A stretch of 64,000 nt of DNA, taken from positions 1,302,001-1,366,000 of the forward strand of contig AP025582.1 in NCBI GenBank assembly GCA_022846075.1. The letters run 5' to 3'. The translations under genes were made by a program, and so were the position numbers. Below the pieces are notes generated by a model. The model was not told the origin of the DNA, made no database searches, and saw only the letters and a list, made by a program, of their open reading frames with translations. Shown piece by piece: positions 2,896 through 19,083 of the stretch (position 1 is its first letter; every line of letters begins with the position of its first letter). This DNA comes from Oscillospiraceae bacterium. GTDB taxonomy: Bacteria > Bacillota > Clostridia > Oscillospirales > Oscillospiraceae.

Positions 2896-2899
2896 TATT

Positions 2900-3478
2900 T
2901 TGCGGCTGAAACTTCAATTGCCGGCCAAGGCCGGACGCTTCCACATCTTTGAGTGTGAGGCAGTTCGGCTGGTTACGCTGCCGGACGAGGAATTCCAAGA
3001 CTTTTTGAATGGCCCTCACCAGGATGGCCGCTGGGCTGCAGAGCCGTTCTATGCTGATGAACACGGCAGACGGATCTACCAGGGCGTCCTCGTTTTGGGA
3101 GAGGGGCATAAAGACGGAGTTTTTGCCTATGATGGGGGGAAACACTTTGCCTACTTGCCCGGAGCAAGAGCGGTGGTTGATTCCATTCTGGAGCAGGCAG
3201 TGGAAAAGATCATCAGGGAGGGAGCGGAAAACACCAACGAGGGTAGCTGGTGCTATTATTTCAGTGAGCTTTATGAGCAAATGGGACTGGTGATAGAGGA
3301 CGGGAACGGCTTCGATACCATGCTCCTTGAGAAGCTGGAGCAGCGGCCGGAGGCGGCGGATGTCACCCTGACAGACGAGTGCTTTGATGTCTGCTATTAT
3401 CTGGACTGCTGCAAAAACCTGGCGCCGGAGCAGCCCGCCCCCTCTCTTTCCGCAGAGCGGAAGGAGGAGATCATATAA
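2900..3478 (+). CDS. Unknown ICE protein (192 residues)
   Basis: The open frame extends upstream over the M23 gene, but TTG 2900 has GGAGG (2886-2890) at 9-nt spacing and gives a sensible N-terminus (MRLKLQLPAKAGRFHIFEC). I therefore take it as the start. The protein is soluble and acidic, with no signal peptide or membrane segment. It has alternating strands in the first half and a helical second half with a Cys-rich end (CFDVCYYLDCC). It sits directly behind the hydrolase gene in an accessory gene run of the element. I do not recognise the family with certainty. Confidence 0.65.
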   Translation: MRLKLQLPAKAGRFHIFECEAVRLVTLPDEEFQDFLNGPHQDGRWAAEPFYADEHGRRIYQGVLVLGEGHKDGVFAYDGGKHFAYLPGARAVVDSILEQAVEKIIREGAENTNEGSWCYYFSELYEQMGLVIEDGNGFDTMLLEKLEQRPEAADVTLTDECFDVCYYLDCCKNLAPEQPAPSLSAERKEEII

Positions 3479-3493
3479 GGCATTCTGAACTAT

Positions 3494-4234
3494 ATGGCAG
3501 AGTATTTCGATGACAGCAGCCTCTACGATATCCTTCATAACACATTGGAAATCTGCAACGATGAAATTGGATGCCTCGGCTTCGCTCTGTATGATGAATA
3601 TGTGGACGAGCAGATTGAAGCATCTGAGGTGCAGTCTGACCTTCTCCCAAAATCAGGGAAGCTGGTGAATCTGCTTTCCGCCTATGAAGAATTACAACAG
3701 ATCCCAGATGAGGAACGAATCACCCGCCTGGCTCCAGGGGCTTTCGGTTACTGCCTTGACTCAGATGTGCCGGATGAACGGCTTCATACCGTGTACCAGC
3801 AGGCTCTGTCCGCTCTCGAACTGGAGAGCGATGAAATCCAGGAGGCCGAGAGCTTCACCTCCCGTGATGAAATCATTTCCCGTATGCGGGACTGCCTGTT
3901 AGCTAAGGAGCTGACGGCTGGAGACAAGGTGCTGTTTGTCGCTACCGAGCCATATGGAGGCCCCGGCGATTTCGATCTACGCGGTGGAGTAATAGAGAGC
4001 GTGGATGAAAAGGACAAGACTTGCTCTGTGCGGGGAACTTTTTTCACAATGGAAAAAGTCCCCCTTCACTATGTGCTTGGGCGGTACAACCCAGCGGTTG
4101 GTGAGGAGCACTATGGGGTCCGCGGCATCGTCCCCTTCTTTTGCGAGGACAAAGAACTGGCTGGGTATTACCTGAATGAGGTCCGGATCATGTGGGATGT
4201 GGAGATGGGTGAGGAACAGGATCTCTCTATGTAA
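3494..4234 (+). CDS. Unknown ICE protein (246 residues)
   Basis: This is an acidic soluble protein. The N-terminal ~130 residues are helical (DDSSLYDILHNTLEIC). Residues ~150-205 look like a small beta-barrel (GDKVLFVATEPYGGPGDFDL then GGVIESVDEKDKTCSVRGTF), similar in layout to SH3-like or hypervariable-loop domains. It is co-directional with its neighbours and 15 bp behind the previous stop. No catalytic motif is visible, and I do not recognise a family. Confidence 0.65.
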   Translation: MAEYFDDSSLYDILHNTLEICNDEIGCLGFALYDEYVDEQIEASEVQSDLLPKSGKLVNLLSAYEELQQIPDEERITRLAPGAFGYCLDSDVPDERLHTVYQQALSALELESDEIQEAESFTSRDEIISRMRDCLLAKELTAGDKVLFVATEPYGGPGDFDLRGGVIESVDEKDKTCSVRGTFFTMEKVPLHYVLGRYNPAVGEEHYGVRGIVPFFCEDKELAGYYLNEVRIMWDVEMGEEQDLSM

Positions 4235-4274
4235 AACAGACAGAACACGGTAATAAAACGATGGGAGGGATACT

Positions 4275-5738
4275 ATGGCAGTGCTGTATCAAGTAGAGCA
4301 ACAGGGACGGCAAACCGCTTTTGTAGGCGAGGATGGAACTGGGCTTGTGGGGCTGTATCCACTGTTAGCGCGGGCCGCTGCCATCACGGAAAATGAGAAC
4401 AACAGCTTCGCGGAGGCTCTTTCTCTCGCTGCCGCTGAACGCGGCACTCCACTCAGGCGGGTATTTGCAGATGAAGCGGAGGCCCTGAGCCATGACCTTG
4501 GTCATGGCGGGGCTGCGGAACAGCGGGCGGTCATTGATCTGGACAATGGGCGAATACGGGTGGAATATGACCACCGGGCCGGCAGCCTGCGGGAGAGCTT
4601 GGATGCCCTGGCAAACCATTTTCCAACGGCAGGCGCCAACAGAATCCAGAACAGGCTCATAGCTTTCCTTGCGGAGCATGACGGAAGTGAGGAACTCTAC
4701 AAGACGCTTCACAATGAGTTGGGACTGACTAATCAGGAGATTGAGGCCATGGGCTTCGATCTCGCCCACCGCTATGAGCCTGACTGCGATGACGCATACC
4801 AGGACATCGTGGACTACATTCGCTTTGAGCAGGAAACCTCGAAGATGTGGCCCTGGCTTATCTCCGGCGATGAGATGCTTGCCCAGGAAACGACCCTGCG
4901 GGAGATCGCTGGCCGGCTGACTGCCGCTGGCGAATGGGATACGGAGAGCATCTACGAGAGCTTGACGGAAGCCTTTGGAAACAATCTATCGCTGGATAAA
5001 CAGTCAAAGGATGACACGAAAGAGGAGGAAAGAAACATCAATATTAAACAGGATCAGTTGGATCTGCTTTGGCAGTTGGAGGAGTTCAGAAAGAAACATG
5101 AACATCAGGCAGAGCCGTCCGACTGGGCGATCCGGATGTGTGAGGCGTTTGTTGCCCGAAGTATGGGCTTCACAGACCGGGTACAGTGGACGGAACTGCT
5201 CCGGCAGAAGGGTGAAACTCTCTTCACCTTCGACTGGAAGTCCGGCAGCATCAGCGACCATGTAGTCCAGTGGTGCAAGGAAAATAATCGGAACTGGAGA
5301 TACAGCCATCTTGGGGAGTTGCAGGTTGCCCATGGCGGCGAGTGGAGAAAGGTCGATTATTTCTGCAGGGATGGCAGTGAAACCAGAGTGTATTTTCCAC
5401 CAAAACCTGTGCAGGAACATCAGCTCCAGGCATTGGCGGAAGACCCTGCCATCCATCTGCGGGACCTGCTCATGCTCGGCCTGCCGGATCATGATGTCTA
5501 TTTAGTTCATGCCGCCGAAGATGTTGGCTGGGTGCCCGCAGCGGACCTTCCCCGTCTGACCGCCCAGGGCAAAGAAGAATTCTCGGCTCTTCTGGATGCC
5601 AAGATTGCCGCCATCCGCCCCGGCCCCTATGGAGTGGAGCTGGTTCTGGACGGCGTCAATTCACAGCTTCTGGCACAATACGATGAAACACTTGCCAACA
5701 GTTCCAGGGCAGAACATGCCATGGAACTGTTTCTGTAA
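4275..5738 (+). CDS. Unknown ICE protein (487 residues)
   Basis: Start ATG 4275 follows GGGAGGG. The N-terminal ~90 residues form a beta/alpha domain (MAVLYQVEQQGRQTAFVGED). A helical middle follows (~100-260). A C-terminal half (~265-487) repeats a WxxL-rich layout and ends with a domain containing GPYGVELVLDGV. There is no transmembrane segment. Lengths and composition fit large uncharacterised accessory proteins of clostridial ICEs that sit between the transfer genes and the DUF6103 gene. No enzymatic motif can be named. Confidence 0.65.
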   Translation: MAVLYQVEQQGRQTAFVGEDGTGLVGLYPLLARAAAITENENNSFAEALSLAAAERGTPLRRVFADEAEALSHDLGHGGAAEQRAVIDLDNGRIRVEYDHRAGSLRESLDALANHFPTAGANRIQNRLIAFLAEHDGSEELYKTLHNELGLTNQEIEAMGFDLAHRYEPDCDDAYQDIVDYIRFEQETSKMWPWLISGDEMLAQETTLREIAGRLTAAGEWDTESIYESLTEAFGNNLSLDKQSKDDTKEEERNINIKQDQLDLLWQLEEFRKKHEHQAEPSDWAIRMCEAFVARSMGFTDRVQWTELLRQKGETLFTFDWKSGSISDHVVQWCKENNRNWRYSHLGELQVAHGGEWRKVDYFCRDGSETRVYFPPKPVQEHQLQALAEDPAIHLRDLLMLGLPDHDVYLVHAAEDVGWVPAADLPRLTAQGKEEFSALLDAKIAAIRPGPYGVELVLDGVNSQLLAQYDETLANSSRAEHAMELFL

Positions 5739-5751
5739 TGGAGGGATCACG

Positions 5752-6012
5752 ATGAAAAAAGCCACAGTCACGGTTTCATTTGAGCAGGAAAAACTCAAAG
5801 CCGTCCAGTTCTATGCGGGAAAGAACGGTACCTCTTTAGAGTTGGAACTGGATACGTTCATGGAGAAGCTCTACAAAAAATATGTGCCTTCTCAGACCAG
5901 GGAGTATATTGAAAGCATGGCGGAGCCGGAGGAACAGCCCCGCCCGCGGCCTGCCCGGTCCCCTCGAAGCGCCGCGCCGGATACTTTTGACGAGAAGAAG
6001 GGGGTTGAATAA
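5752..6012 (+). CDS. DUF6103-family protein
   Basis: 86 residues from ATG 5752 (GGAGGGATCACG before it). The sequence MKKATVTVSFEQEKLKAVQF and the following helix ending in LYKKYVPSQTREYIES match the DUF6103 family, small proteins found beside conjugation genes of Clostridia. The N-terminal strand plus helix resembles a ribbon-helix-helix fold, so DNA binding is possible but unproven. The C-terminal 25 residues are Pro/Arg rich and probably disordered. Its TAA shares one base with the ATG of the next gene, so the two are coupled. Confidence 0.75.
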   Translation: MKKATVTVSFEQEKLKAVQFYAGKNGTSLELELDTFMEKLYKKYVPSQTREYIESMAEPEEQPRPRPARSPRSAAPDTFDEKKGVE

Positions 6013-7454
6013 TGGCCGATTCTGTATCTACCGAGGCGTGGCTGGATCAGCGGCGCTGGGCGGCGCTGGAGGAGGCGCTGAAGGCGCAAGGCAGTAATGT
6101 TAAACGGCATCTACAGGATTATTTGATAACGCTGTACAACGAAACTGTTCCATTAGAACGATGGGTACAGATTGAAACAGCTATCACAAAGGAAGAACTG
6201 GAGTCAGCACAGGCAGCGGAAGACCAGAAAGTCTATGCGGCTTTTCATATTCGGGAGAATGGCCATGACAGTATCTTCTCAACGGGTAATGGCGAGGAAT
6301 TTCTGGATGTGGCCATACGGCTACGCCGTTATCTGCAAGGAGGCGCCGAGTCGGTGAAGGGCGATTTCTCCCACCACTTTTATAAGGCACAGCCCATTAC
6401 GCGGGAGCGGTTTGATGAACTGGCCACCCTGCGTATGGAAAACATCGGCAAGGTTTCAGGTGCATTTGAAATCGATATGGACGCCGCCTGGATCTCCAGC
6501 CTGCTCATTATGGATGGCTGGCATACTTTTAAGATCAAGGATGTCTCAGCTGCCGTTTATCACGCCACGCGCAGTTTACATGTGCCACTGGAATACCAGT
6601 GGCACAAGTTTATCAAACACTTGGATGGAAAACAAATCGAGCCGGAGAGCTTTGCCTCTGCTGAGATTGGGGGCCTACGTCCCTTGGAGAAGGGAGATAT
6701 ACTCTGTATTGACGGACCTTTTCCCACAGACCGGGAGTTGAAGTTCCGGCTGGATCTCAGCAGCTATGGGGTCCAGAAAGAGGTGCTGAACCTGATGACG
6801 GACTGCTCAAAGCCGGAGAATTCTTTGGAGATCACCTGCAGTTATGACGCCGCTCGCCAAGGCATCAGCAATAAACTTGACCTAACCCTCCGCCAGAAGA
6901 ATGGGATGGTACGGCACGACTTTTTCTATCCATTGATGGAGGAGGAACGAGCGCACCTCCTTAAAATAGTTGAACAGTTCTGCCAGCAGCAGGCCGGGAA
7001 AACGCTGAACGATTACTATGCGCAGTTGGATATGGAGCGCGAAAACCCGCCTGAACTCACAGCAGGCGTTAAAAGGCTGCCAATAGATACAGTGTCCTTC
7101 AGCGGTGAGATTACAGAGTGCGATGGGAAACTGAACTTTTATATCCCCATAAACTTTGATCCGGACGAGGTATTTGGTACCAATGTTGCCTCCGCCTTCA
7201 ACGATGACTGGCTGAATGTGTACGCCAATTTTGACTGGAAGACCGGGCGGATAGACAGCGCATTGACCGTATGTCTCGTCTGCTCTGACGGTCATGAGTT
7301 TGAGTTTTCCTACCCGCTGACTCCCGCGGAACAGGTCCAGTTGTGGGACCAGATGGACGCCTACTGCCGCCAACAGAGTGGACAGACCTTGGGGGAAACA
7401 AGGACCTCCCTGTTGCGGGAGCAGGCGGAAGAAGGGCTGGAGATTCGGCTGTAG
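6012..7454 (+). CDS. Unknown ICE protein (480 residues)
   Basis: Translation overlaps the preceding DUF6103 stop by one base. The N-terminal ~60 residues resemble the DUF6103 helix (WAALEEALKAQGSNVKRHLQ, then LYNETVPLE), suggesting both proteins derive from a related module. The remainder alternates beta-rich blocks (~210-290 and ~360-450) with FEIDMDAAWIS and FDWKTGRIDSALTVCL-type segments. No signal peptide or membrane helix is seen. It is likely an accessory factor of the element, and no function can be assigned. Confidence 0.65.
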   Translation: MADSVSTEAWLDQRRWAALEEALKAQGSNVKRHLQDYLITLYNETVPLERWVQIETAITKEELESAQAAEDQKVYAAFHIRENGHDSIFSTGNGEEFLDVAIRLRRYLQGGAESVKGDFSHHFYKAQPITRERFDELATLRMENIGKVSGAFEIDMDAAWISSLLIMDGWHTFKIKDVSAAVYHATRSLHVPLEYQWHKFIKHLDGKQIEPESFASAEIGGLRPLEKGDILCIDGPFPTDRELKFRLDLSSYGVQKEVLNLMTDCSKPENSLEITCSYDAARQGISNKLDLTLRQKNGMVRHDFFYPLMEEERAHLLKIVEQFCQQQAGKTLNDYYAQLDMERENPPELTAGVKRLPIDTVSFSGEITECDGKLNFYIPINFDPDEVFGTNVASAFNDDWLNVYANFDWKTGRIDSALTVCLVCSDGHEFEFSYPLTPAEQVQLWDQMDAYCRQQSGQTLGETRTSLLREQAEEGLEIRL

Positions 7455-7619
7455 GAAACGCCGCTCGGTAAATTTTATCGACTTTCCACAGCTTTCCAGG
7501 CCGCTTTTTATTGGCAGTGATGAATGGATTTCTCTTCGGAAGTGTGGCATTGTGTTGTTGCATGGGCAGCAAATCGGCGCCTGAAACAAACCAAAAATCC
7601 GAAGAAAGGGGTTCAACGA

Positions 7620-8075
7620 ATGAAAGCCGAACAAGTATGTAAACTGCAGGAAAATCTCGCAAAGGAGGCCATTGCATACCTTATGCTCTATGGAACAGCC
7701 GTGGATGTAACTCCATATCGAAAGGCTGTGACACAGGTTGGAATGGCATGGGGACTTCCAATACCAGACACACAGCGGTGGCTGGACTTGATCCGTCAGG
7801 AAGAAATCGCAGTTGCCCAAGCAGCCAATCCCGAAAAGGTGAATCATGTGATGGAGGAAAAAGACCTGCCGATAAACGCCAGCGGCCTCCAAACCCTGGA
7901 TAATATCTGGGGCTTGTTCGAGACAGCGGTGGAGCTGAACAGCGCCGCTGGCCGCCGTGAGATGTACGCACTGGCCAGGGAATTGAGCGAATGCCAGAAC
8001 CTGACGGACTGGATCATCAAAAGCCAGACGGAGAACGAGGGGGCCCAGGCGCCCATGGCCTGCACACAGAACTGA
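7620..8075 (+). CDS. Small helical ICE protein (151 residues)
   Basis: The open frame extends upstream, but ATG 7620 is preceded by AAGAAAGGGG and gives a clean start (MKAEQVCKLQENLAKEAIAY). The product is almost fully helical and slightly acidic, without membrane segments. It is the last gene before the candidate origin-of-transfer region and is followed within 30 bp by a terminator. Unknown function. Confidence 0.6.
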   Translation: MKAEQVCKLQENLAKEAIAYLMLYGTAVDVTPYRKAVTQVGMAWGLPIPDTQRWLDLIRQEEIAVAQAANPEKVNHVMEEKDLPINASGLQTLDNIWGLFETAVELNSAAGRREMYALARELSECQNLTDWIIKSQTENEGAQAPMACTQN

Positions 8076-8103
8076 GCAAACCAATAGCCGATGCTCCATG
8101 AAA

Positions 8104-8129
8104 AGCCGTGCGGCAGCACGGCTCTTTTT
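8104..8129 (+). terminator. Intrinsic terminator after the first transfer-accessory gene run
   Basis: Perfect 8-bp stem AGCCGTGC / GCACGGCT (8104-8111, 8116-8123) with a 4-nt loop, followed by CTTTTT. It lies 28 bp behind the stop at 8075 and separates that gene run from the non-coding region in front of mobC. Confidence 0.85.
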
Positions 8130-8132
8130 GTG

Positions 8133-8470
8133 GTGTGGAGCGCATTCCCCCGCCGTTGCCCCCTGTGCGGCCCTGTGTCCCCTTTTCCAAGAGGGGGTGG
8201 CATCCGTACACCTGCCACCCTTCTGGGGGCTTGTGGCGGCTTTGTGCGGGCCGTTCCTAAAATGAGCGGTGACCGTCCTGCGTTGATGGCCTCTCACTTT
8301 CGCCTTTAGCGAGGGTGAACCGAGGGGTCGAAAACAGTGCGGGATAAAGAGCGGGGGTCGCAAAGCGTCCCCCGCTCGGCTCACACCGCCCCGCAATGCG
8401 GGCCGGGGAACGGTTTTGCGGGGGTCACTTTTCAGGGGATGGGATCACACCGGGGGTCACCACGGCTGGA
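8133..8470. other. Candidate origin of transfer (oriT) region
   Basis: 560 bp between 8076 and 8635 hold no credible gene. The GC-rich core carries two strong inverted repeats. GGGTGGCA (8195-8202) pairs with TGCCACCC (8213-8220). GAGCGGGGGTCGC (8349-8361) pairs with GCGTCCCCCGCTC (8365-8377) over a 3-nt loop with one mismatch. The region lies immediately upstream of the MobC-like gene and relaxase gene, where oriT sits in MOBP-type elements. Hairpins beside the nick site are the usual relaxosome recognition structure. The nick site itself cannot be placed from sequence alone. Confidence 0.55.
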
Positions 8471-8589
8471 ATGGCCCATCACTCCAGCGTTTATCCGGCA
8501 TTAAAACAGGGATATGGACAGAAAAAAGGCACAAAATCAAAGTATGGACGGCATCCAGTTTTGAAGTAAAGAAGTCACTCAAAAAGACG

Positions 8590-8621
8590 AATCCCTGACC
8601 ATGCAAAGGTCAGGGATTTTT
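8590..8621 (+). terminator. Terminator-like hairpin directly before the mobC ribosome site
   Basis: The 11-bp perfect stem AATCCCTGACC / GGTCAGGGATT (8590-8600, 8608-8618) with a 7-nt loop is followed by a run of T to 8621. The Shine-Dalgarno GGAGG of the next gene begins at 8626. No promoter can fit between hairpin and ribosome site, so this acts as an attenuator that transcripts must pass. Confidence 0.8.
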
Positions 8622-8635
8622 GATTGGAGGAAAGT

Positions 8636-9043
8636 ATGGCGAGAGAAAAAATCAAGTTCGCTCTGCGTATTGCTCCCGAAACACAGCAACTGGTCAAAGA
8701 ACTCTGTGAAAGGGATAACTGCCAGAGCCAGAACGAGTTTATTGAAAAGGCAATCCGCTTCTATGCCGGCTATGTTTCCGGCAAGGAAGCCACAGCATAT
8801 CTGCCGCCCGCACTGGTGGCAGCCATGCGCGGGACCGTCCAGGACAGTGAGAACCGCATCGCCCGCCTGCTCTTCAAACTGGCGGTGGAGGTCAACATGA
8901 TGATGAATGTACTGGCGGCGGGCATGGAAATCAGTGACGAGGATCTCAAGACACTCCGCGCCCGGTCCGTCCGTGAAGTGAAGCAGACCAATGGGCGCAT
9001 CAGCTTCAAGGACGCCATCGACTACCAGCGGGGCGTGGAGTGA
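8636..9043 (+). CDS. MobC-like relaxosome accessory protein
   Basis: 135 residues from ATG 8636 (GGAGG at 8626-8630). The N-terminal ~45 residues form a ribbon-helix-helix-like unit (KFALRIAPETQQLVKELCER then SQNEFIEKAIRFYAGYVSG), the layout of MobC and related proteins that bind oriT and help the relaxase. The middle (~60-100) is a hydrophobic helix (LLFKLAVEVNMMMNVLAAGM) that may mediate oligomer contacts. It directly precedes the relaxase gene (23-bp gap), as in MOBP modules. Confidence 0.8.
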   Translation: MAREKIKFALRIAPETQQLVKELCERDNCQSQNEFIEKAIRFYAGYVSGKEATAYLPPALVAAMRGTVQDSENRIARLLFKLAVEVNMMMNVLAAGMEISDEDLKTLRARSVREVKQTNGRISFKDAIDYQRGVE

Positions 9044-9065
9044 TGCACAAAGGTGGTGACAGTCT

Positions 9066-12062
9066 GTGCCGCGCCTGATTTTCAAGTGCCCCTACATCAA
9101 GGGCGGTACCTCCTCCGCCACCGCTCATCTTGAAAACTATGTGAAATATATGGCCACACGGAATGGTGTGGAGCGCATCGATCCGGGACGAAGCGGGTGG
9201 CCGGCCACCTCAAAGCAGAAAAAGATGGTGGAACAGATCCTGCGGGACTTCCCGCTCAGCCGTGGGATGTTTGAATACGAGGACTATGCGGCCGAGCCGA
9301 CACGCGCCAACGCATCGGAGTTCATCACTCGCGCTCTGGAGGACAACTATGACCAGATCGCCAAGAAGGATAACTATCTGAAATACATCGCCACCCGCCC
9401 CCGCGCCCAGCGCGTCGGTTCCCATGGATTGTTTACCGGCGAGGAAGATCAGCTCGTACTGGCGCAGGTAGCGGAAGCGGTCGCGGCCCACCCCGGTAAT
9501 GTGTGGCTGCCCATCATCTCTCTGCGGCGGGAAGACGCCGCCCGTCTCGGCTATGACAAGGCGGAAGAATGGAAAGCACTGCTCTCCAAGTATGCCATGG
9601 AAATGGCGGAGGCGATGAAGATCCCTTGGGAGGATTTCCGGTGGTACGCTGCATTCCATGATGAAGCACACCATCCCCATATCCACATGGTCTGCTACAG
9701 CGCCGATCCGTCGAAAGGCTTCCTCACCACGCAGGGCATCGCCCAAATCAAGTCGGGACTGGCAAAAGAGATCTTCCGGCAGGAGCTGACGGAGCTTTAC
9801 CAGAAGCAGACCCAGAGTAGGAACACGCTGAATGAGGACGCCCGCTCTGTGCTGGAGCAGTTGATTGAACAGATGTGGAGCGGCGCCGTGGTCAACCACC
9901 GCATGGAGAAGCTCATGGAGCATCTGGCGGAACGCCTGCGGCACACCGGAGGCCGGAAGCAGTACGGCTACCTCAAGGCTCCGCTGAAGGCTGTGGTGGA
10001 TGAGATTGTGGACGAGCTGACCAAAGAGCCATGTATCGCCGCAGCCTATGCCCTGTGGTATGAACTGCGGGAAGATGTGCTGCGCACCTACAAGGACGAC
10101 CTGCCTCCACGCCTTCCCCTTTCCCAGCAGAAGGAATTCAAGCGGATCAAAAACATCGTCATTGAGGAAGCGGTAACACTGGGGGCGCGCCAGCAGGTTT
10201 TCCATCCAGATGACCAGCAAGACCGTGTCCCTGTGAAGGACCAGGAAGAAGCGCCGCTGCCGGAGGCGCCCCAGCCTGATAACGACTGGAATGATTTCTC
10301 GGAGTCCCCACCGGACGATGTCCCAGACAAAACGGTGTCTGCGCCAGCCAAAGCGCAGATGAACTGGAGCGATGAGTACCGCCTGGCCCGCCGCTGTTTG
10401 TTTGGCGGCAAGGATCAGCCCCAGGATCTTGAGCAGGCGTTTACCCTGTTCCAACAGGAGGCGCAAAAAGGCAATGCGCTGGCCATGCACGATCTGGGCC
10501 GGATGCTTGCGGACGGGCTGGGCCGGAAGATTGATATGCAGGCCGCCCATGTGTGGTACAGCAAGGCGCTGGCCGCTTTCTACGCTGTTGAGAGGCAGAA
10601 GAAAAAACGCTATACGGAGTACCGGATCGGCAAACTGTATGCCGCGGGCCTCGGCTGTGAGCAGGACTATGGTGATGCCGCCCGGTGGCTCCAACTTTCC
10701 GCAGACAAAGGGTACAAGTATGCGCAATATTCCCTTGCCGGCCTGTTTCGCCGTGGACAGGGTGTGGAACAGGACGATGCACGGGCGCTGGAGTTATACA
10801 CAGCCTCTGCACAGCAGGACTTCCCCTATGCCACCTACGAGTTAGGAAAGATGTATCGGGACGGCATTGGCTGTGAGAAGGACGCCGAAGCGTCGGAACG
10901 GTGGTACCGGCAAGCCTTCGCCGGATTTCTCGAATTGGAGCAGCAGAGCCATGACGATAAATTGCAGTACCGCATCGGATGGATGCTCCTCCATGGTGTA
11001 GGGACTGGTAAAGATGAGGCGGCAGCCAGGGAGTGGTTTGAACAGGCGTCCAAACTGGACAATCCCCACGCGCAGTACCAACTGACCCGGATGATTTTCA
11101 ATGATCCATCCTCTACACCGGAGCAGACAGCCCAGGCATTGGAGCGGCTGACAAAGGCGGCGGAAGCCGGCCAGGACTGTGCTCAATACGCGCTCGGCAA
11201 AATCTATCGGGATGGTCAGGGCGTGGAAAAAGACATTCAAAAGGCGGTGGCTCTGTTCACACTTGCGGCAACGAAGGAAAACAGCTTCGCCGCCTTTGCT
11301 CTTGGCAAGCTGTATCTTGCCGGTGACGCAGCCCTGCCCAGAGACCCGGCGGCCGCACTGAAATGGCTCACATACGCTGCGGAACTTGGGAACCAGTTTG
11401 CCCAGTACCGCCTGGGAAAACTACTGCTGAAGGGAGACGACGGTATCCCAAAGGATGTAATAGCCGCCATCCGCTGGCTTACTGCCGCAGCCAAACAGGA
11501 GAACGGGTATGCGGAATACGCCCTGGCTCTGGTCTATCTCACAGGAGAAGATGCACCCAAAGACAGCGTAAAAGCACTAAGTCTGCTGAAGCGGTCAGCA
11601 GGCCGGGGTAATCAGTTTGCGCAGTACCGGCTGGGCAAGCTGCTGCTCCAGGGGGAAGATGCGCCAAAGGATGTGAAAGCCGCCATCCGCTGGCTCACCG
11701 CCGCAGCGGAACAGGGCAATCAATACGCCCAGTATGCCCTCGGCAAGCTCTATCTGCTTGGGAAGGAGGTCCCAAAAGATAGATCCAGTGCGATCAAGTG
11801 GTTCCAGCTGGCAACGGATCAGGGCAATGAATATGCTCAATATTTCCTGGAACACATGGATGATCGCTTGGGCCAGCCTCCTGTGGCGGCCGTCATTTCG
11901 CTGTTCCACCATCTGGCCAACATTTTCCAGGAGCAAAACCAACCACCGCCCTCCGGTGGCGTCCGGGTCGCGGTGGATCGGAAGCTCCTACGAAAAATCA
12001 AGGCGAAGAAGATCGCTCAGGGCCACAAGGCGGATGACCATGAGCCGGAAATGCAGCTATAA
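9066..12062 (+). CDS. MobP-type relaxase fused to Sel1-like repeats
   Basis: 998 residues from GTG 9066. The N-terminal ~330 residues are a HUH relaxase. The metal-binding motif is HDEAHHPHIHMV at about residues 198-209, and a conserved start MPRLIFKCPYIKGG leads to Tyr residues near 25-29 that could be the nicking residue. Relaxases cut oriT and pilot the strand through the coupling protein. A linker rich in Pro/Asp follows (~375-430). The C-terminal ~435-940 is an array of about a dozen Sel1/TPR-like repeats of the type YAQYRLGKLLLxGEDxPKD, probably a protein-interaction scaffold. The last repeats are very similar to each other, indicating recent internal duplication. NCBI-type MobP3 relaxases have this architecture. 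Confidence 0.9.
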   Translation: MPRLIFKCPYIKGGTSSATAHLENYVKYMATRNGVERIDPGRSGWPATSKQKKMVEQILRDFPLSRGMFEYEDYAAEPTRANASEFITRALEDNYDQIAKKDNYLKYIATRPRAQRVGSHGLFTGEEDQLVLAQVAEAVAAHPGNVWLPIISLRREDAARLGYDKAEEWKALLSKYAMEMAEAMKIPWEDFRWYAAFHDEAHHPHIHMVCYSADPSKGFLTTQGIAQIKSGLAKEIFRQELTELYQKQTQSRNTLNEDARSVLEQLIEQMWSGAVVNHRMEKLMEHLAERLRHTGGRKQYGYLKAPLKAVVDEIVDELTKEPCIAAAYALWYELREDVLRTYKDDLPPRLPLSQQKEFKRIKNIVIEEAVTLGARQQVFHPDDQQDRVPVKDQEEAPLPEAPQPDNDWNDFSESPPDDVPDKTVSAPAKAQMNWSDEYRLARRCLFGGKDQPQDLEQAFTLFQQEAQKGNALAMHDLGRMLADGLGRKIDMQAAHVWYSKALAAFYAVERQKKKRYTEYRIGKLYAAGLGCEQDYGDAARWLQLSADKGYKYAQYSLAGLFRRGQGVEQDDARALELYTASAQQDFPYATYELGKMYRDGIGCEKDAEASERWYRQAFAGFLELEQQSHDDKLQYRIGWMLLHGVGTGKDEAAAREWFEQASKLDNPHAQYQLTRMIFNDPSSTPEQTAQALERLTKAAEAGQDCAQYALGKIYRDGQGVEKDIQKAVALFTLAATKENSFAAFALGKLYLAGDAALPRDPAAALKWLTYAAELGNQFAQYRLGKLLLKGDDGIPKDVIAAIRWLTAAAKQENGYAEYALALVYLTGEDAPKDSVKALSLLKRSAGRGNQFAQYRLGKLLLQGEDAPKDVKAAIRWLTAAAEQGNQYAQYALGKLYLLGKEVPKDRSSAIKWFQLATDQGNEYAQYFLEHMDDRLGQPPVAAVISLFHHLANIFQEQNQPPPSGGVRVAVDRKLLRKIKAKKIAQGHKADDHEPEMQL

Positions 12063-12075
12063 GGGAGGTAATCTT

Positions 12076-12210
12076 TTGAAACAGAAAGTGCAGTTTAAAC
12101 AGCAGATTTTATTGGCGCAGCCCAAAGGCATTCAAGGGCTGAAAAGGCAAAAGCCAATCCCGTGCAGACCTGTTCTGTTCCACCGGAAACTCAAGGGAAG
12201 GAATCAGTGA
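12076..12210 (+). CDS. Small basic protein (44 residues)
   Basis: A TTG start at 12076 lies 7 nt behind GGGAGG and 14 bp after the relaxase stop. It encodes a strongly basic peptide (MKQKVQFKQQILLAQPKGIQ...) with many Lys, Gln and Arg residues and no acidic residues. The position and ribosome site argue for a real gene; the size makes this tentative. A nucleic-acid-binding role in the relaxosome is possible but only inferred from charge. Confidence 0.4.
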   Translation: MKQKVQFKQQILLAQPKGIQGLKRQKPIPCRPVLFHRKLKGRNQ

Positions 12211-12411
12211 GAGGCATATGAGGTATGAACCTGCGGACTCCCTTTAATAGCCTCTGGAGCTTCAACAAGAAGTTCTGAAATCTTTTTCTCTTTTTCAGTT
12301 ACCCTTTCAGGCACCTTTCCAGTCACACTACCGCTGTGGTCTATGGGCGTCGGGATCAAGTCCAAGAGCTCCGAAAGATGCCAACCAACCGAATGAATTA
12401 ACACAGATTTG
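12211..12411. other. Intergenic region without a supported gene
   Basis: About 200 bp between the small basic ORF and the attenuator of the primase gene. It is less GC-rich than its flanks, and a minus-strand open frame crosses it. I saw no promoter or repeat that I would defend. It may be the scar of a lost gene. Confidence 0.3.
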
Positions 12412-12439
12412 AGAGGCCGCATACTGCGGTCTCTTTTTT
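12412..12439 (+). terminator. Terminator-like hairpin directly before the primase ribosome site
   Basis: Stem AGAGGCCGCA / TGCGGTCTCT (12412-12421, 12425-12434; one G-U pair) with a 3-nt loop and six T. The Shine-Dalgarno AAGGAGG begins at 12443 and the GTG start is at 12458, so there is no room for a promoter behind it. The arrangement equals that in front of mobC. Confidence 0.8.
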
Positions 12440-12457
12440 GATAAGGAGGGATGTAGC

Positions 12458-13903
12458 GTGCCATATATCCACTTCACAGAGGACCAAAAACTCCGTGCCA
12501 ACTCCGTTGACCTGGTGGAGTTCCTGCGCCGGCAGGGAGAGAAACTCATCTCCTCCGGCCAGGACAAACGCCTCACCTCAGATCACAGTATTACTGTGCA
12601 TGGGAATGAGTGGTATGATCATGCTGCAGAGAGGGGTGGCCATGCAATCTCCTTTGTCCAAAATTTCTATGGCCTGACTTACCCTGAAGCAGTGACCCGT
12701 CTGCTCAACGGTGAACAGGGGGAGGTGTATGTACCGGCGGAGAAAAAAGAAAAAGAGCCGCCAAAGGAATTTGCCCTGCCTCCCTCAAACCAGGCCATGC
12801 GGCGGGTATATGCTTATCTGCTCCAGCAGAGGCACATCAGCCGGGAGGTACTAAGCGCTTTCGCACAGAAGGGACTGATCTATGAGAGCCGGGAATTGTC
12901 CATAGATCAGACAAAGGTGTATCACAACGCCGTGTTCGTAGGATTCGATGAACGCGGCGTTGCCCGTCATGCCCACAAGCGGGGGCTCTATACCCAAGGC
13001 AAAAGCTACCGGGGCAACATAGAGGGCAGTGATCCCCGGTGCAGTTTCCACTGGGTCGGTACCAGCGACCGCCTCTATGTATTCGAGGCCCCCATCGATC
13101 TGCTTGCCTTTCTCACCCTGTACCCGGACGGCTGGCAGCAGCACAGCTATGTGGCTCTCTGTGGTACGGCGGAACATGCTATGCTGTGGATGCTGGAGAA
13201 AAATCCAAATCTGCGGAAAGCCATCCTTTGCCTGGATCACGATGCCGCCGGAATCGAGGCCGCCGGCCGGCTCTCGGATATTCTGCGGGAGCATGGCTAT
13301 TCTCAAATTGCCTCGCTGCAATCCGAACACAAAGACTGGGACGAGGATCTGAAAGCGTGGAATGGACTGGAGGCCCAGCCCGCCGAGGAGCATCCGCAGT
13401 TTGCGGTGGCGGGGCTCGTCTGTCGGCGAATCGGAGCCAGGTGCAAGGAAGTTCAGCCAGACCGGGCGGTTTACCAGTTTCCCGGATTGCTCCTGCGGTA
13501 CCGGAACGACCTCCATTGGGGACGCTTTGACCAGGCGATGGAGCGCATGGAAACCATGGCGGCGCTGGCCCTCTCGGTGGTGCTGCGGGAGTGCAAACAG
13601 ATGGGTACCGCACTGACCACTGAGCAGGGCGTCCGGTTTTTAGAAAGCCACATCCTGCCTCATCAGAACCGGGGTATCCTCAAGAACCGGGCGGATGAGA
13701 TCGCCATGCAATTCCAAAGCGTATTGGCCAAGAACAATTGCCAGGGTATCCGTACCCAGGCAGAGAAAAAAGAGGTGGCCAGCGCATGGCTGGAGCTGGC
13801 CATCTCCTGTGCCAAGGTGCCGGTCAAGTACGAGGCCGACGAGATCAAACGGCGGCAGAAAGAGGAAAAGACCCAGAGGGAAGCTGAGCCAGTGATGGCC
13901 TAA
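12458..13903 (+). CDS. DUF3991/Toprim primase-like protein
   Basis: 481 residues from GTG 12458. The N-terminal ~90 residues resemble the CHC2-like zinc domain without the cysteines (ITVHGNEWYDHAAERGGHAI). DUF3991 follows (~105-190). A Toprim domain has the acidic residues in VFEAPIDLLAF (about 207-217) and ILCLDHDAAGIEAA (about 255-268). The C-terminal 130 residues are helical and basic. Such proteins of conjugative elements are thought to act as primases or topoisomerase-like helpers that convert the transferred single strand to duplex. It lies between relaxase and VirD4 genes. Confidence 0.85.
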   Translation: MPYIHFTEDQKLRANSVDLVEFLRRQGEKLISSGQDKRLTSDHSITVHGNEWYDHAAERGGHAISFVQNFYGLTYPEAVTRLLNGEQGEVYVPAEKKEKEPPKEFALPPSNQAMRRVYAYLLQQRHISREVLSAFAQKGLIYESRELSIDQTKVYHNAVFVGFDERGVARHAHKRGLYTQGKSYRGNIEGSDPRCSFHWVGTSDRLYVFEAPIDLLAFLTLYPDGWQQHSYVALCGTAEHAMLWMLEKNPNLRKAILCLDHDAAGIEAAGRLSDILREHGYSQIASLQSEHKDWDEDLKAWNGLEAQPAEEHPQFAVAGLVCRRIGARCKEVQPDRAVYQFPGLLLRYRNDLHWGRFDQAMERMETMAALALSVVLRECKQMGTALTTEQGVRFLESHILPHQNRGILKNRADEIAMQFQSVLAKNNCQGIRTQAEKKEVASAWLELAISCAKVPVKYEADEIKRRQKEEKTQREAEPVMA

Positions 13904-13908
13904 GCCTG

Positions 13909-13966
13909 AAGCAGCAAAGCGGAGGAATGGCTCAGTCCCACTCCTCCGCTTCTTCCTGGCTGCTTG
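13909..13966. terminator. Convergent terminator between primase and zinc-ribbon genes
   Basis: The perfect stem AAGCGGAGGA / TCCTCCGCTT (13917-13926, 13942-13951) is extended outwards by AAGCAGC / GCTGCTT. Short T- or A-rich tracts flank it. It overlaps the end of the minus-strand gene and can serve both directions. Confidence 0.65.
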
Positions 13967-14099
13967 TTTGTCTGCTGAGATATTCTGCCCGCTCCTGCTT
14001 ATTGGCTGGCCGGGTTGCCTGCTTTCCACAGTCCGGGCATTGCTCCGGCAGTTCCGGCGCCTCAAACAGATAGTAGCAATGGTCACATGCGCAAATCAA
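13932..14099 (-). CDS. Small zinc-ribbon protein
   Basis: About 55 residues. Two CxxC pairs (CACDHC and CPDC) are spaced 20 residues apart, forming a rubredoxin-like zinc ribbon, then an acidic tail. I choose TTG at 14099 because AGGTG lies 5-6 nt upstream; an upstream TTG at 14135 would add 12 residues without a ribosome site. Such mini zinc ribbons are frequent next to virD4 in clostridial ICEs. Function unknown. Confidence 0.55.
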   Translation of the reverse strand: MICACDHCYYLFEAPELPEQCPDCGKQATRPANKQERAEYLSRQTSSQEEAEEWD

Positions 14100-14193
14100 A
14101 GCAATCACCTCATACCAATTTATTATAGCAGACAAAGCGAAAACTGAACATCCCCTTCTGATATTAAGGCGTAGATATCAAAAGGAGGATCAT

Positions 14194-16008
14194 GTGCCAA
14201 CGCAAGTTATAACACTTATCGTGGTAGGCGCCATCATGTTTCTCGTGATCGGCGGTCTCGCGTTTCTCTCCCATTACTATACCCTTGACGGAATCAAATC
14301 CAAGACTGTGGGCGACGGCCAGCACGGAACCGCACGCTGGGCTACCAAACAGGAGATTCGGCAGACCTATGCCCATGTCCCTTTTGAACCAGAGCTGTGG
14401 CGCAAGGGAGAGCATCTGCCGGAAAAGCAGGGCCTTGTCCTTGGCTGCGAAGGGCCCAAAGACCATGTTACAGCTCTGGTGGACACCGATGACATCCACG
14501 CCATGGTCACCGCCGCCAGCGGCGCCGGAAAGACCGCGTTTTTTTTGTACCCCAACATCGAATATGCCCTCGCCAGCGGGATGTCCTTCCTCTGCACGGA
14601 TACCAAGGGCGACCTGTTCCGCAATTATGCCGGTATTGCCAAGGACTGCTACGGATACCAAATCGCCGTGTTGGATCTGCGTAATCCCACCCGCTCGGAC
14701 GGCAACAACCTGCTTCATCTGATCAACAAGTACATGGATATCTATAAGGCCGACCCCAAAAACCTGGCAGCAAAGGCTAAGGCGGAGAAATACTCCAAGA
14801 TCCTCGCCAAGACGCTCATCAACACCAGCGGCGGCGACAGCGCCCAGTATGGGCAAAACGCCTTTTTCTACGATTCCGCCGAGGGCCTGCTGACCGCCAT
14901 GTTCCTGCTGGTGGCCGAGTATCTGCCCACCGAGGACGCGAACGGCAATCCCATTGAAAAGCGCCACATCGTGTCGGTGTTCAAGCTGGTGCAGGAACTG
15001 CTGGCTCCCAGCCGGGTGAAGGGAAAGAATCAGTTCCAGCTTCTGCTGGAAAAGCTCCCGCCTAATCATAAGGCCCGCTGGTTTGCCGGGTCCGCCCTCA
15101 ACACGGCGGAGCAGGCCATGGCCTCCGTGATCTCAACGGTACTGTCCCGCCTAAACGCCTTCCTCGACTCGGAGATGGAGCAGATCCTCTGCTTTGACAC
15201 CGCCATTGACGCGGAGAAGTTTTGCAATGAGAAATCCGCCATCTTTATCGTACTGCCCGAGGAGGACCAGACCAAGTATTTTATGGTCAGCCTGATCCTC
15301 CAAAACCTGTATCGGGAGATCCTCACTGTGGCTGACGAGAACGGCGGCCGGCTCAAGAACCGGGTGGTCTTCTTCGCGGACGAGTTGGGCACCTGCCCGC
15401 CCATTCAGTCGCTGGAACTGATGTTTTCCGCCTCCCGGTCCAGAGGACTCATGCTGGTGCCTATCGTCCAGAGCATTACGGGACAGCTGCAGAAAAACTA
15501 TGGAAAAGAGGGCTCTGAGATCATCGTGGACAACTGCCAGGTCAACCTTTACGGCGGCTTCGCCCCGGCCAGTCAGACCGCGGTGGAACTGTCCAAATCT
15601 TTGGGCAGCCGGACGGTAATGAGCGGCAGTATCTCCCGCGGAAAAAACGATCCCAGCCAGTCCCTCCAGATGATGGAGCGTCCCCTCATGACCCCGGATG
15701 AACTCAAGTCCATGCCCAAGGGCAGCTTTATTGTGGCCAAGACCGGCGTCCACCCAATGAAGGTCAAACTGCGGCTGTTCCTTGACTGGGGCATCCGGTT
15801 CGGCATGCCCTATGAAGTACCGGAGAAGGCCCAGCGGTTCGTTGCCTATGCTGACAAACAGGAGTTGGAGGAGTCCATCATCCGCCGCCACTATGGGACG
15901 ATTGTAATGGATAGTGAGCAGCCGCAGGGAGGCGGCACATCCGCTGGCGGTATGGCTCAGGGAATTCAGGCCGCACCGGATTCCCGCAAAACGGTATTTC
16001 GGCCTTGA
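14194..16008 (+). CDS. VirD4/TraG-type conjugal coupling protein
   Basis: 604 residues from GTG 14194 (AAAGGAGG). One N-terminal membrane helix (~2-26, VITLIVVGAIMFLVIGGLAF). The Walker A motif is AASGAGKT (about 107-114) and the Walker B region is VVFFADELGTCPP (about 390-402). The final ~40 residues are Gly/Gln rich. It is the ATPase that recruits the relaxase-DNA complex to the type IV secretion channel at the inner face of the membrane. It is shorter than classic VirD4 at the N-terminus, as usual in Tn1549-like elements. Confidence 0.95.
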   Translation: MPTQVITLIVVGAIMFLVIGGLAFLSHYYTLDGIKSKTVGDGQHGTARWATKQEIRQTYAHVPFEPELWRKGEHLPEKQGLVLGCEGPKDHVTALVDTDDIHAMVTAASGAGKTAFFLYPNIEYALASGMSFLCTDTKGDLFRNYAGIAKDCYGYQIAVLDLRNPTRSDGNNLLHLINKYMDIYKADPKNLAAKAKAEKYSKILAKTLINTSGGDSAQYGQNAFFYDSAEGLLTAMFLLVAEYLPTEDANGNPIEKRHIVSVFKLVQELLAPSRVKGKNQFQLLLEKLPPNHKARWFAGSALNTAEQAMASVISTVLSRLNAFLDSEMEQILCFDTAIDAEKFCNEKSAIFIVLPEEDQTKYFMVSLILQNLYREILTVADENGGRLKNRVVFFADELGTCPPIQSLELMFSASRSRGLMLVPIVQSITGQLQKNYGKEGSEIIVDNCQVNLYGGFAPASQTAVELSKSLGSRTVMSGSISRGKNDPSQSLQMMERPLMTPDELKSMPKGSFIVAKTGVHPMKVKLRLFLDWGIRFGMPYEVPEKAQRFVAYADKQELEESIIRRHYGTIVMDSEQPQGGGTSAGGMAQGIQAAPDSRKTVFRP

Positions 16009-16022
16009 CGGAGGGAAACAGA

Positions 16023-16277
16023 ATGAACAGCTTTAGAAATATCTACAATTCCAATCTAAGCCACAGAGCCAAGAGCGTCTATATGTACCTCAAGGATCGG
16101 GCAGACAGCGAGGGACGCTGTTGGCCGGCTATCAGAACCATTGCTCTGGAGTTGGGGCTTTCCCGCTCTACGGTCAAGCGGGCACTGGATGATCTCTGCA
16201 GGGCTGGTCTGCTGCAAAAGGACCCACGCTGGCGGGAGAATGGGAGTCTTACTTCCAATCTGTATCATGTGGTATGA
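16023..16277 (+). CDS. Helix-turn-helix protein (84 residues)
   Basis: The ATG at 16023 is preceded by GGAGGG. The body is a winged-helix unit (SVYMYLKDRADSEGRCWPAI then LGLSRSTVKRALDDLCRAGL) as in replication-initiator N-termini and GntR-like regulators. It lies 14 bp behind the VirD4 stop and in the same operon. It likely regulates transfer genes or assists replication of the element; which of the two is not visible. Confidence 0.75.
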   Translation: MNSFRNIYNSNLSHRAKSVYMYLKDRADSEGRCWPAIRTIALELGLSRSTVKRALDDLCRAGLLQKDPRWRENGSLTSNLYHVV

Positions 16278-16289
16278 CGGAGGTGTCCA

Positions 16290-16511
16290 ATGCTGGTTGA
16301 GATCGATCTACTGGATTATTTGGCTTATCAAATGGGATGCGGAATTCTTTCTGATCTTCGGCTGTTCCAGCAAAGTGAACGGCTGCACAGGCTCACTGCC
16401 GCGATCCCTTTAGGTGCATGCAGCGAACAGGAATGGCTGGATGCGGCACAGTATTTGACAGGCCATGACTGCGCATCAGCACTGGAAGCAAGAAACCGTC
16501 TGGTGAGATAG
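16290..16511 (+). CDS. Small unknown ICE protein (73 residues)
   Basis: ATG 16290 has GGAGG nearby and is 12 bp behind the HTH gene. The product is helical (DLLDYLAYQMGCGILSDLRL and EWLDAAQYLTGHDCASALEA). It recurs in this position next to HTH genes in my recollection of such elements, but I cannot name a family. It is probably the last gene of the virD4 transcription unit. Confidence 0.55.
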   Translation: MLVEIDLLDYLAYQMGCGILSDLRLFQQSERLHRLTAAIPLGACSEQEWLDAAQYLTGHDCASALEARNRLVR

Positions 16512-16523
16512 CCTGTAAAAAGC

Positions 16524-16549
16524 AGACCCTCCCGCCAAGGGGAGGGTCT
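16524..16549. terminator. Bidirectional terminator
   Basis: Perfect 10-bp stem AGACCCTCCC / GGGAGGGTCT (16524-16533, 16540-16549). On the minus strand a CTTTTT run follows, so it serves the DUF4317 gene as well as the plus-strand virD4 operon. Confidence 0.75.
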
Positions 16550-16691
16550 ACATATCATGTGAACCGAGTCCCGGTTCATAATGAACCAACCAGAAGCGCC
16601 CACTCTAAGGATTTTATTTAAGACAGAAAATAACAAACAATATCTGGCCTTAAAGGTTATACCGCCTTGCGTTGTGTCCGGCTTTTGAAAT

Positions 16692-17834
16692 TTAATCGTC
16701 TTTCTGTGCAGCTGTAATGCTGACAGCAAAACCGTTGACCTCCACGCCATCTTCAGTAGGGATTAGGAGGTACTTGCGCCCGTTGATAATTTGAGTTTCC
16801 ACCAGGTAACTATACTCTGGATCAGCAGAAATGGTGATCTCAGGTGTCTTGATCTCAAAGCGGCTGCTGTCGATCAGGTTTGCCGGATTCAGGACAACCC
16901 CCGAACCAAACTGCTCGCCGCAGTTTTCCTGGAATGCTGCCACCTGTTCATCCGCAATCCCGCAGCTTTGAAGGATTTGCCCTATTTCTGAGGCACTCAT
17001 CTCCAGAGGTTCCGAACTCCTGCTCTCCCTGTGCTCCTTGATTTTCTCACGCAGCTGTTCATGAACAGTCTGCATCACTTCCAGACTGCAGTCAAACGCA
17101 TCGCTCAGAGCTGACTGGAATGCTTCCTTCTGCTCAACGGCAGACATCGGCGCTTCCACATGGAAGATCGCGTCAATGAACTCCTGGTGAATTTCATTGG
17201 CCTTCCTGCTGTAAAAGAGAGCGTTATAGATATTTGCTGCCCGGTCATCAAATGCCGGGAACAGAAAGCCAAGTTCCGGAGAAGCGACGGTTTGCCCAGC
17301 AGCGCAGTGGAATTCATTATCACCGGGGAAGTATCCCAGTTCCACCTTGCCCTCCTTGATGGGGCACACCACACAGACGATGTAGGTGAACACCTCATCC
17401 GAGGCATCCGCTTGCAGGGAATCATCCTTGCCCCGATGGGGGACATCGTAGCTGTCACAGGCCAGGAGCAGCAGGTAACTGCTGTCCCCCATGTCCAGAC
17501 TATTGATCACCTTGCGGTAAAAGGTCTGGCGGGCCTCGTTGTCCTTAAGCTGGGAATCCCGAAGTGTGGTGAGCAGGCGGTGTCCCTCACTATCCGCCAC
17601 CTGCTGGGTGGAGAAGACGATGTCGATGAGGTTTTTCCCCAGGGAACCGGACAGTCCCTTCTTCAAAAGGCTCAAATACTTCTCGGACTCCTCCTGCGGC
17701 ATCATGCCCAGGGATTCGTCCAGATCGGAAACGATCTCTTTACTGCTGTTGACATAGCATCCATAAACACGGCTGATGGTGCTTTTTTCCGGGCGAAAAC
17801 GGCGCCGCAGCTCATTGATTTCTTTTTGGTTCAT
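16692..17834 (-). CDS. DUF4317 protein
   Basis: 380 residues. The start MNQKEINELRRRFRPEKSTI and the following VYGCYVNSSKEIVSDLDES are characteristic of DUF4317, which is common in Clostridia and often on mobile elements. An alpha/beta N-terminal region (~1-200) is followed by helices and a C-terminal beta-sandwich (~290-375). No membrane segment or catalytic motif can be assigned. It faces the VirD4 operon and is probably transcribed from its own promoter. Confidence 0.85.
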   Translation of the reverse strand: MNQKEINELRRRFRPEKSTISRVYGCYVNSSKEIVSDLDESLGMMPQEESEKYLSLLKKGLSGSLGKNLIDIVFSTQQVADSEGHRLLTTLRDSQLKDNEARQTFYRKVINSLDMGDSSYLLLLACDSYDVPHRGKDDSLQADASDEVFTYIVCVVCPIKEGKVELGYFPGDNEFHCAAGQTVASPELGFLFPAFDDRAANIYNALFYSRKANEIHQEFIDAIFHVEAPMSAVEQKEAFQSALSDAFDCSLEVMQTVHEQLREKIKEHRESRSSEPLEMSASEIGQILQSCGIADEQVAAFQENCGEQFGSGVVLNPANLIDSSRFEIKTPEITISADPEYSYLVETQIINGRKYLLIPTEDGVEVNGFAVSITAAQKDD

Positions 17835-17944
17835 TTTTTCCTACCTCGCTTTGTAATCGGAACGGTTGATAACAGACGATGAAATCCATTTTAGTGGAAA
17901 GAGCTTGAAATTTCAATAGCCGGAAGCTCTTTCCCCCAAGAGCG

Positions 17945-17994
17945 CAAAAAAAGAAACCGCCCATGTCAGAAACTATCAGAAACTGACTGAGCGG
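17945..17994 (-). terminator. Terminator of the Xre regulator gene
   Basis: Read on the minus strand: GCCGC-TCA-GTCAG, loop, CTGAC-ATGG-GCGG, followed by TTTC and seven T. It lies 33 bp behind the stop of the minus-strand Xre gene. Confidence 0.7.
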
Positions 17995-18027
17995 CATATT
18001 TTTCATGTCAAACGCCAGTAGGAGTGG

Positions 18028-18351
18028 TTATTTTCTGATCCAGTCCAGAAAAACAGCTACTTTCTCCAAGTCTTCATCCGGCAGGGCAAGCAGCTTCTTG
18101 CCTATGATCCCACGCAGGGAATCCGGATCGTCCATAGGAGCAAAGAAAAGAGTTGGCGTCAAATCAAAGTATTCCATGATGTTGAACAGCTCCCGGAGAG
18201 AGGGCATAGAAATTCCATTGGTGATGCTTCTGATGTAGGAGCCGCTCTTTCCAAGCTCCAGGCTCATCCGATGCTCAGAAACGCCTTTCTGTTCCCGCAG
18301 CTCTGTGATGCGGTTCCGCACAAACGCTTCATAGCGGCGGTTATCGTCCAT
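18028..18351 (-). CDS. Xre-family transcriptional regulator
   Basis: 107 residues. The Xre/Cro helix-turn-helix spans about residues 14-65 (ITELREQKGVSEHRMSLELG followed by GSYIRSITNGISMPSL). A C-terminal helix (DEDLEKVAVFLDWIRK) likely dimerises. It is divergent from the SLOG gene and the immunity array, with a 190-bp shared regulatory region. It is a reasonable candidate for controlling those promoters, which is an inference from position. Confidence 0.85.
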   Translation of the reverse strand: MDDNRRYEAFVRNRITELREQKGVSEHRMSLELGKSGSYIRSITNGISMPSLRELFNIMEYFDLTPTLFFAPMDDPDSLRGIIGKKLLALPDEDLEKVAVFLDWIRK

Positions 18352-18431
18352 GATCCTCTCCCTCCAATCTCTACTTATTATTTTAATATAAGGGAGCGTC
18401 GCGGGTTCGCACTTAAATCATCAACTTTTGC

Positions 18432-19034: not shown

Positions 19035-19083
19035 AAAATAGTAAAGTATACCCATTTAGAAATTTGTAACCCGAGGTCTTGCT

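Follow-up and report, generated by a model that had tools for sequence, protein, structure and literature searches.

The window analysed here is a 64,000-nucleotide stretch (bases 1302001–1366000) of the complete 3.23-Mb genome of an Oscillospiraceae bacterium, and the relatives with which we compared it belong to the same family. Four genes in this window follow a hairpin that lies next to their Shine–Dalgarno (SD) site. On the forward strand, a mobC-like gene for a relaxosome accessory protein of 135 aa (8636–9043, ATG at 8636; SD GGAGG at 8626–8630) is preceded by a hairpin at 8590–8618 with an 11-bp stem (−19.4 kcal/mol) and a T-rich tail on both strands. The Toprim/DUF3991 gene (12458–13903, forward strand, start codon GTG at 12458; SD at 12443–12449) stands behind a terminator-like forward-strand hairpin at 12411–12435 (−16.7 kcal/mol, T-rich tail) at the end of a cargo slot. 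A long array of immunity genes begins with a DUF6138 gene (19274–20656, forward strand, ATG at 19274; SD at 19260–19266). The hairpin ahead of this gene (19203–19241, forward strand, −27.2 kcal/mol) is followed by six T residues (19243–19248), and the ribosome site of the array lies 12–15 nt past this T tract. Finally, a sigma-like gene (SD at 58652–58656, ATG at 58665) is preceded by an AT-rich perfect palindrome at 58613–58649.

An initial annotation had placed these four hairpins and their ribosome sites correctly. It had interpreted them as terminators of unrelated sequence that serve one common design, a general read-through control of the modules of the mobile element, perhaps exerted by a NusG-like antiterminator encoded elsewhere on the element. 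By stem energy and T tract, the hairpins before mobC, the Toprim gene and the immunity array do resemble intrinsic terminators. The hairpin before the sigma-like gene does not: the 17-bp palindrome would fold into a stem and is followed by TTGGAGGA, but it has no U tract and occurs once in the genome. We therefore rejected 58613–58649 as a terminator or repeated element. Near the same gene, a hairpin at 58517–58546 (GCCGGGGATGC...GCGTCCCCGGC, followed by TATTTTT) is a better terminator candidate than the AT-rich palindrome. Just downstream of the sigma-like gene, a pemK RNA motif (Rfam RF02913, 64 bits) at 59440–59536 lies upstream of a PemK/MazF-like toxin gene (59807–60190).

The frequency of the layout was determined with one simple home-made gene caller, applied to the window, to a single 340-kb sample of the same chromosome as host background, and to 43 related loci. 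We counted compact hairpins of −12 kcal/mol or lower with at least 80% of the arm bases paired and a T-rich tail ending no more than 45 nt from an SD-bearing start. With these criteria, the layout precedes 3 of 48 SD-bearing genes in the window; the chromosome sample gives 12 of 204 (Fisher p = 1). Restricting the comparison to co-directional genes with gaps of 30 nt or more gives 3/20 and 7/88, respectively (p = 0.39). An enrichment of the hairpin–SD layout in the window over the 340-kb chromosome sample was not found. Since the layout is no commoner here than in the host, it is not a hallmark of the element as such.

We also inspected the leaders of orthologous genes in related elements, taken from one genome per species and partly non-independent as loci. 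A terminator is present in 15 of 29 Toprim leaders, in 10 of 38 mobC leaders and in 3 of 27 leaders of an HTH gene, compared with none in the control leaders of the relaxase (0/32), VirD4 (0/24) and M23 peptidase genes (0/24). When near-identical hairpins are grouped by hand, the Toprim terminators represent six unrelated hairpin lineages and those of mobC represent five. Because relaxase and VirD4 genes usually have scant upstream space, it is fairer to compare with host leaders that have gaps. Against these, the lineage counts amount to about 6/18 for Toprim (p approximately 0.009) and about 5/27 for mobC (p = 0.15). The occurrence of unrelated hairpins in Toprim leaders, but of none before relaxase and VirD4 genes, therefore indicates a positional recurrence without conservation of sequence. 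This expectation of the initial annotation is firmly borne out for Toprim, with 15/29 leaders and six lineages, and the data for mobC are suggestive but weak. It does not extend to a general rule, as related elements without a Toprim terminator exist (loci L055, L056, L057, L063 and L064), an outcome that the initial annotation had itself named as refuting its proposal.

The surroundings of the Toprim gene point to a possible origin of its terminator. The upstream MobL relaxase gene (9066–12062, forward strand) is fused to Sel1 repeats; the protein of 998 aa contains at least nine of these at its C-terminus, and the repeat part is shorter or longer in relatives. An ORF of 44 codons (12077–12210) separates this gene from a variable cargo slot (12213–12410) that extends towards the Toprim gene and in the window holds a non-coding relic carrying an antisense open frame. 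In L056, which encodes a 95% identical Toprim protein, the segment 12213–12458 is missing and the terminator is absent. In L058 and L059/L065 the slot contains other genes that end 58–78 nt before the Toprim gene, with the terminator located within that gap, and the slots of L063 and L070 contain an antisense toxin–antitoxin-like pair and another antisense gene, respectively. On the simplest reading of these arrangements, the terminator is part of the cargo, which brings it up against the Toprim ribosome site. It would then be the 3' end of a variable slot inserted between the relaxase and Toprim genes. A search of viral contigs with the Toprim protein returned no relatives. The record MT835654.1 (L032), labelled "Bacteriophage sp.", is 98% identical to the element over positions 1–18685 of the window, including the relaxase region, so this record is probably a fragment of an integrative conjugative element and not a phage.

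Upstream of mobC, the preceding genes end at 8075, and a separate terminator-like hairpin (8104–8123, forward strand) appears to end these upstream transfer genes. It is followed by a conserved intergenic block with inverted repeats (8143–8528, e.g. CCGCCCCGCAATGCGGGCCGGGG), which is 84% identical in L056 and has related repeats upstream of mobC in other relatives; we presume that this block is the oriT region. The mobC-like protein has relatives in 31 of 150 family genomes and matched no Pfam family. A search of plasmid records found no sequence resembling the mobC leader; only the immunity region was matched, in OY725843. The mobC hairpin would sit between the presumed oriT and mobC. As it adjoins the repeat-rich block, and many relatives carry hairpins without T tracts upstream of mobC, it might not be a terminator but belong to oriT, as an inverted repeat close to nic. 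We consider this assignment unlikely, since the conserved repeats sit further upstream, the hairpin in the window has T-rich tails on both strands, and L056 has a different sequence in place of the hairpin segment. In this locus the flanks are homologous, with the same TTTGATTGGAGGAAAG, but 8529–8612 has given way to a shorter stretch that contains an unrelated hairpin. Either 8124–8590 contains a promoter of an unrecognised type, in which case the hairpin would be an attenuator, or mobC depends on read-through transcription.

As sequence-unrelated structures that recur at module joints, the Toprim and mobC terminators are probably insulators, so the downstream transfer genes would need read-through or an unrecognised promoter. 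There are precedents for read-through in Gram-positive conjugative elements. Internal terminators are passed by conAn processive antitermination on pLS20 (PMC8955417) and by canT processive antitermination on Tn916 (PMC11658703). The transfer region described here also contains multiple internal terminator-like hairpins (8104–8123, 8590–8618 and 12411–12435), as do those of relatives. The mobC and Toprim joints resemble the pLS20 conjugation operon with its many internal intrinsic terminators (PMC8955417), although just a few joint terminators are seen here. In Tn916, the terminators T1–T3 insulate transfer genes, and their sequences vary from one related element to another (PMC11658703), as those of the hairpins do here. 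By analogy with these two elements, terminator insulation combined with processive antitermination is plausible for the Toprim and mobC joints, and RNA-based or bipartite systems such as canT or conAn could possibly suit them.

The entire genome contains one gene with a NusG domain (PF02357), at 2015935, outside both the element and the window. The proposed NusG-like antiterminator on the element was thus not found, and control of the LoaP or RfaH type is unlikely. This leaves the idea of one long transfer transcript with module-joint terminators that are bypassed by processive antitermination of the element's own, either by a canT-like RNA or by a conAn-like bipartite system. Such a mechanism fits the finding that unrelated terminators recur ahead of Toprim (15/29) and mobC (10/38), with none preceding relaxase, VirD4 or M23 genes. 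It also fits the precedents cited above (PMC8955417, PMC11658703) and a distance between hairpin and SD that is too short for a promoter. Several observations weigh on the other side: an antiterminator was not identified, and the lone NusG-domain gene is outside the element; the layout is as frequent in the window as in the host background; a cargo insert that brings a terminator at its end would likewise place one near the SD; and some relatives lack the terminator. We regard this mechanism as conceivable but doubtful. Of the general read-through control proposed initially, the recurrence of unrelated terminators at Toprim, and weakly at mobC, still speaks in favour, but the NusG-like factor and the common design are not supported.

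The leader of the immunity array (19026–19274) contains a larger set of recognisable parts, all on the forward strand. It begins with an extended −10 element, TGATATAAT (19026–19034). Comparable −10 boxes are found in many relatives: about half of the loci have an extended −10 or TATAAT-like box 90–140 nt before the conserved motif, and in the L116/L117 lineage TTGATA-17-TATGAT lies at a greater distance upstream. An upstream ORF (uORF) of 57 aa (19084–19257, product MEEKLGQSTAVLFKYEKLILAEEETTSAGGCGVSLAAFSCPASACPSDRVSRGFFIV) with its own SD (GAGG, 19073–19076) runs through the terminator hairpin and T tract at 19203–19248. Inside the uORF, TGCGGCCTTTTC separates a first hairpin (CCACATCC/GGATGTGG, 19157–19178; hairpin 1) from the terminator. 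Hairpin 1 is conserved and followed by TTTTC upstream of the terminator; it is a candidate pause hairpin. A uORF spanning the hairpin was not found in the mobC or Toprim leaders. With this arrangement absent at mobC and Toprim, and with a hairpin lacking a U tract before the sigma-like gene, the four sites do not share one design.

Searching with the DNA segment 19130–19275 gave matches in 13 of 250 family genomes, and in the best of these the homology stops directly after the T tract. When 19248–19274 is compared with L099 and L055, the homology of the arrays ends after the leader T tract and the first genes differ, as if new immunity genes enter beside the leader. We built a covariance model (R1) from 14 sequences. 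This model matches the window at 19148–19250 (forward strand) with 113.5 bits, and it has matches in 22 of 400 family genomes and seven more in the order (families f13, f16, f23 and f26, with the f16 match being weak, E 2.7e-4). A class-wide sample yielded one further match, which is weak. In a model-fitted alignment of 37 loci, which leans towards structure, 93.9% of the cells are paired, and 16 of 32 pairs have changed on both sides. These include all six pairs of hairpin 1, whose sequence varies among relatives. None of 500 shuffles reached the observed value, and slid controls were 40–59% paired. The 37 loci are related sequences, and locus counts therefore exceed the number of independent events. 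The claim that the hairpins are unrelated in sequence thus holds within the window, but among relatives the hairpin of the immunity array is strongly conserved.

No credible Rfam match was obtained at the immunity leader, with none above the gathering score, and viral contigs contained no exact match to the leader motif. A few copies of the leader (L126, L129, L134 and L141) precede other genes or none. The genome of Anaerotruncus colihominis (CP102255.1) carries three related elements (L054, L056 and L074), each with an immunity-array leader. From these comparisons we conclude that the sequence is a widespread and previously unlisted RNA leader. It probably controls the 38-kb array of genes for immunity to toxins, which is carried by a mobile element of gut bacteria.

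Across the leaders the uORF is 57–64 codons long. An SD with a start codon lies at −64 to −43 from the beginning of the motif, and the frame that it opens continues past the terminator loop, in about 32 of 37 loci; the other frames across the uORF contain stops in most loci. For codons 10–24 the pN/pS ratio is 0.53 in frame versus 0.81 and 0.90 out of frame, which suggests modest purifying selection on the peptide. In several loci the stop codon of the uORF and the ATG of the first gene share bases (ATGA). Two loci, L138 and L140, have a frameshifted uORF, and that of L138 still reads into the terminator. The in-frame selection, weak as it is, the conserved Y..(I/L)L and ETTS..CG positions and the translational coupling to the next gene could also mean that the uORF functions as a small gene in its own right, the first of the array, with hairpins that merely stop read-through or tune relative expression. 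We find this quite improbable, because the peptide and its frame across the terminator differ between lineages (e.g. L134, L149, L150 and L154) while the RNA pairing is kept. Among distant members, the peptide and even the frame in which the terminator is read have changed in this way, so it is translation through the terminator, and not the peptide, that seems to be retained.

The anatomy of the immunity leader, its conservation, the covariation of its stems and the frame that is open through the terminator are well established at the level of sequence comparison. From these features we infer that 19026–19274 is a conserved cis-regulatory attenuator, probably a translation-coupled one similar to those of pyrBI and vmlR. 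Transcription would start at the extended −10 promoter, the uORF would be translated from its own SD, and hairpin 1 would be a probable pause hairpin. RNA polymerase would normally outrun the ribosome and stop at the terminator. A ribosome on the uORF close behind the polymerase, for example when the latter is paused or slowed, would block folding of the terminator. The 38-kb array would then be transcribed, with its first gene often translationally coupled to the uORF.

A close parallel is the UTP-sensing pyrBI leader of E. coli, in which the terminator lies within the leader-peptide gene and a pause lets the ribosome catch up with the polymerase and suppress termination (PMC4824070). As in pyrBI, a leader ORF with a ribosome site spans a terminator that stands before a structural gene. 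This terminator is recognised by covariation and T tract, and its termination is predicted; in both systems a hairpin and a T-rich stretch lie ahead of it. The immunity leader differs from pyrBI in the phylum and in the regulated genes, and in many cases its uORF reaches or overlaps the beginning of the following gene; the response to UTP is a feature of pyrBI. In Bacillus subtilis, RNA polymerase outruns ribosomes (PMC9226507), which makes antitermination by a following ribosome less likely in Firmicutes unless the polymerase pauses. For this reason our confidence in suppression by the ribosome is moderate.

The vmlR leader of B. subtilis, likewise a Firmicute leader, offers a different solution with the same order of parts, namely a uORF, a pause hairpin and an intrinsic terminator before the SD of the gene (PMC9226507). 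If the immunity leader were of this vmlR or trp type, a ribosome stalled on the uORF would shift the upstream pairing such that an antiterminator replaces the terminator, and the immunity genes would be induced when translation is disturbed. Hairpin 1 is conserved, and in some members it is followed by TTCTTT, which resembles the NusG pause motif TTNTTT. In vmlR the uORF is a tripeptide inside the anti-antiterminator and the leader needs an antiterminator, whereas the uORF described here has 57–64 codons and passes through the terminator instead of ending before it. In addition, the 5' arm of the terminator has no stable conserved upstream partner: we found no conserved antiterminator in the immunity leader, and the candidates are no more stable than those of shuffled sequences. 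An antiterminator switch of this type therefore appears improbable, and the absence of a conserved competitor structure favours a model in which the ribosome itself directly suppresses the terminator.

The genes behind the leader form a bona fide immunity array, judging from their families. In relatives the first gene encodes a MSLKYTCPGCGTPLGYEGLC protein in about 21 cases, an MSLPKRD/MNLPKRN protein (DUF6138-like) in about eight and an MCEHCRN-type protein in one. The genes further downstream belong to the immunity families Imm17, Imm33, Imm68, SUKH, SUFU, DUF1963, DUF2262 and DUF4261. Within the array of the window, 38359–44556 encodes a poly-immunity protein of 2065 aa with Imm68, Imm33, SUKH, SUFU, DUF4261, DUF7832 and DUF4253 domains, and 50177–51385 encodes a homologue of the RNA ligase RtcB that perhaps repairs toxin-cut RNA. 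Long arrays and fusions of immunity domains are known from the poly-immunity loci of polymorphic toxin systems (PMC3482391), as found here. The text searched does not mention a leader, attenuation or a terminator, and the open-access literature yielded no description of how immunity arrays are switched on.

Taken together, it is probable that the four hairpins are several different things and not one design: an attenuator in the immunity leader, insulators at the mobC and Toprim joints, and a palindrome before the sigma-like gene that is no terminator. The census thereby splits two questions that had been merged, terminator insulation of conjugation modules, which is a known theme, and attenuation of immunity cargo. 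One might speculate that the leader common to mobile immunity arrays in Oscillospirales senses the closeness of ribosome and polymerase and responds to disturbances of transcription or translation, caused by incoming toxins or by nucleotide depletion, by switching on whole immunity banks, but we consider this proposal a long shot. Arrays of immunity genes protect gut bacteria from interbacterial toxins, and a conserved leader with all its parts visible makes the switching of these arrays testable.
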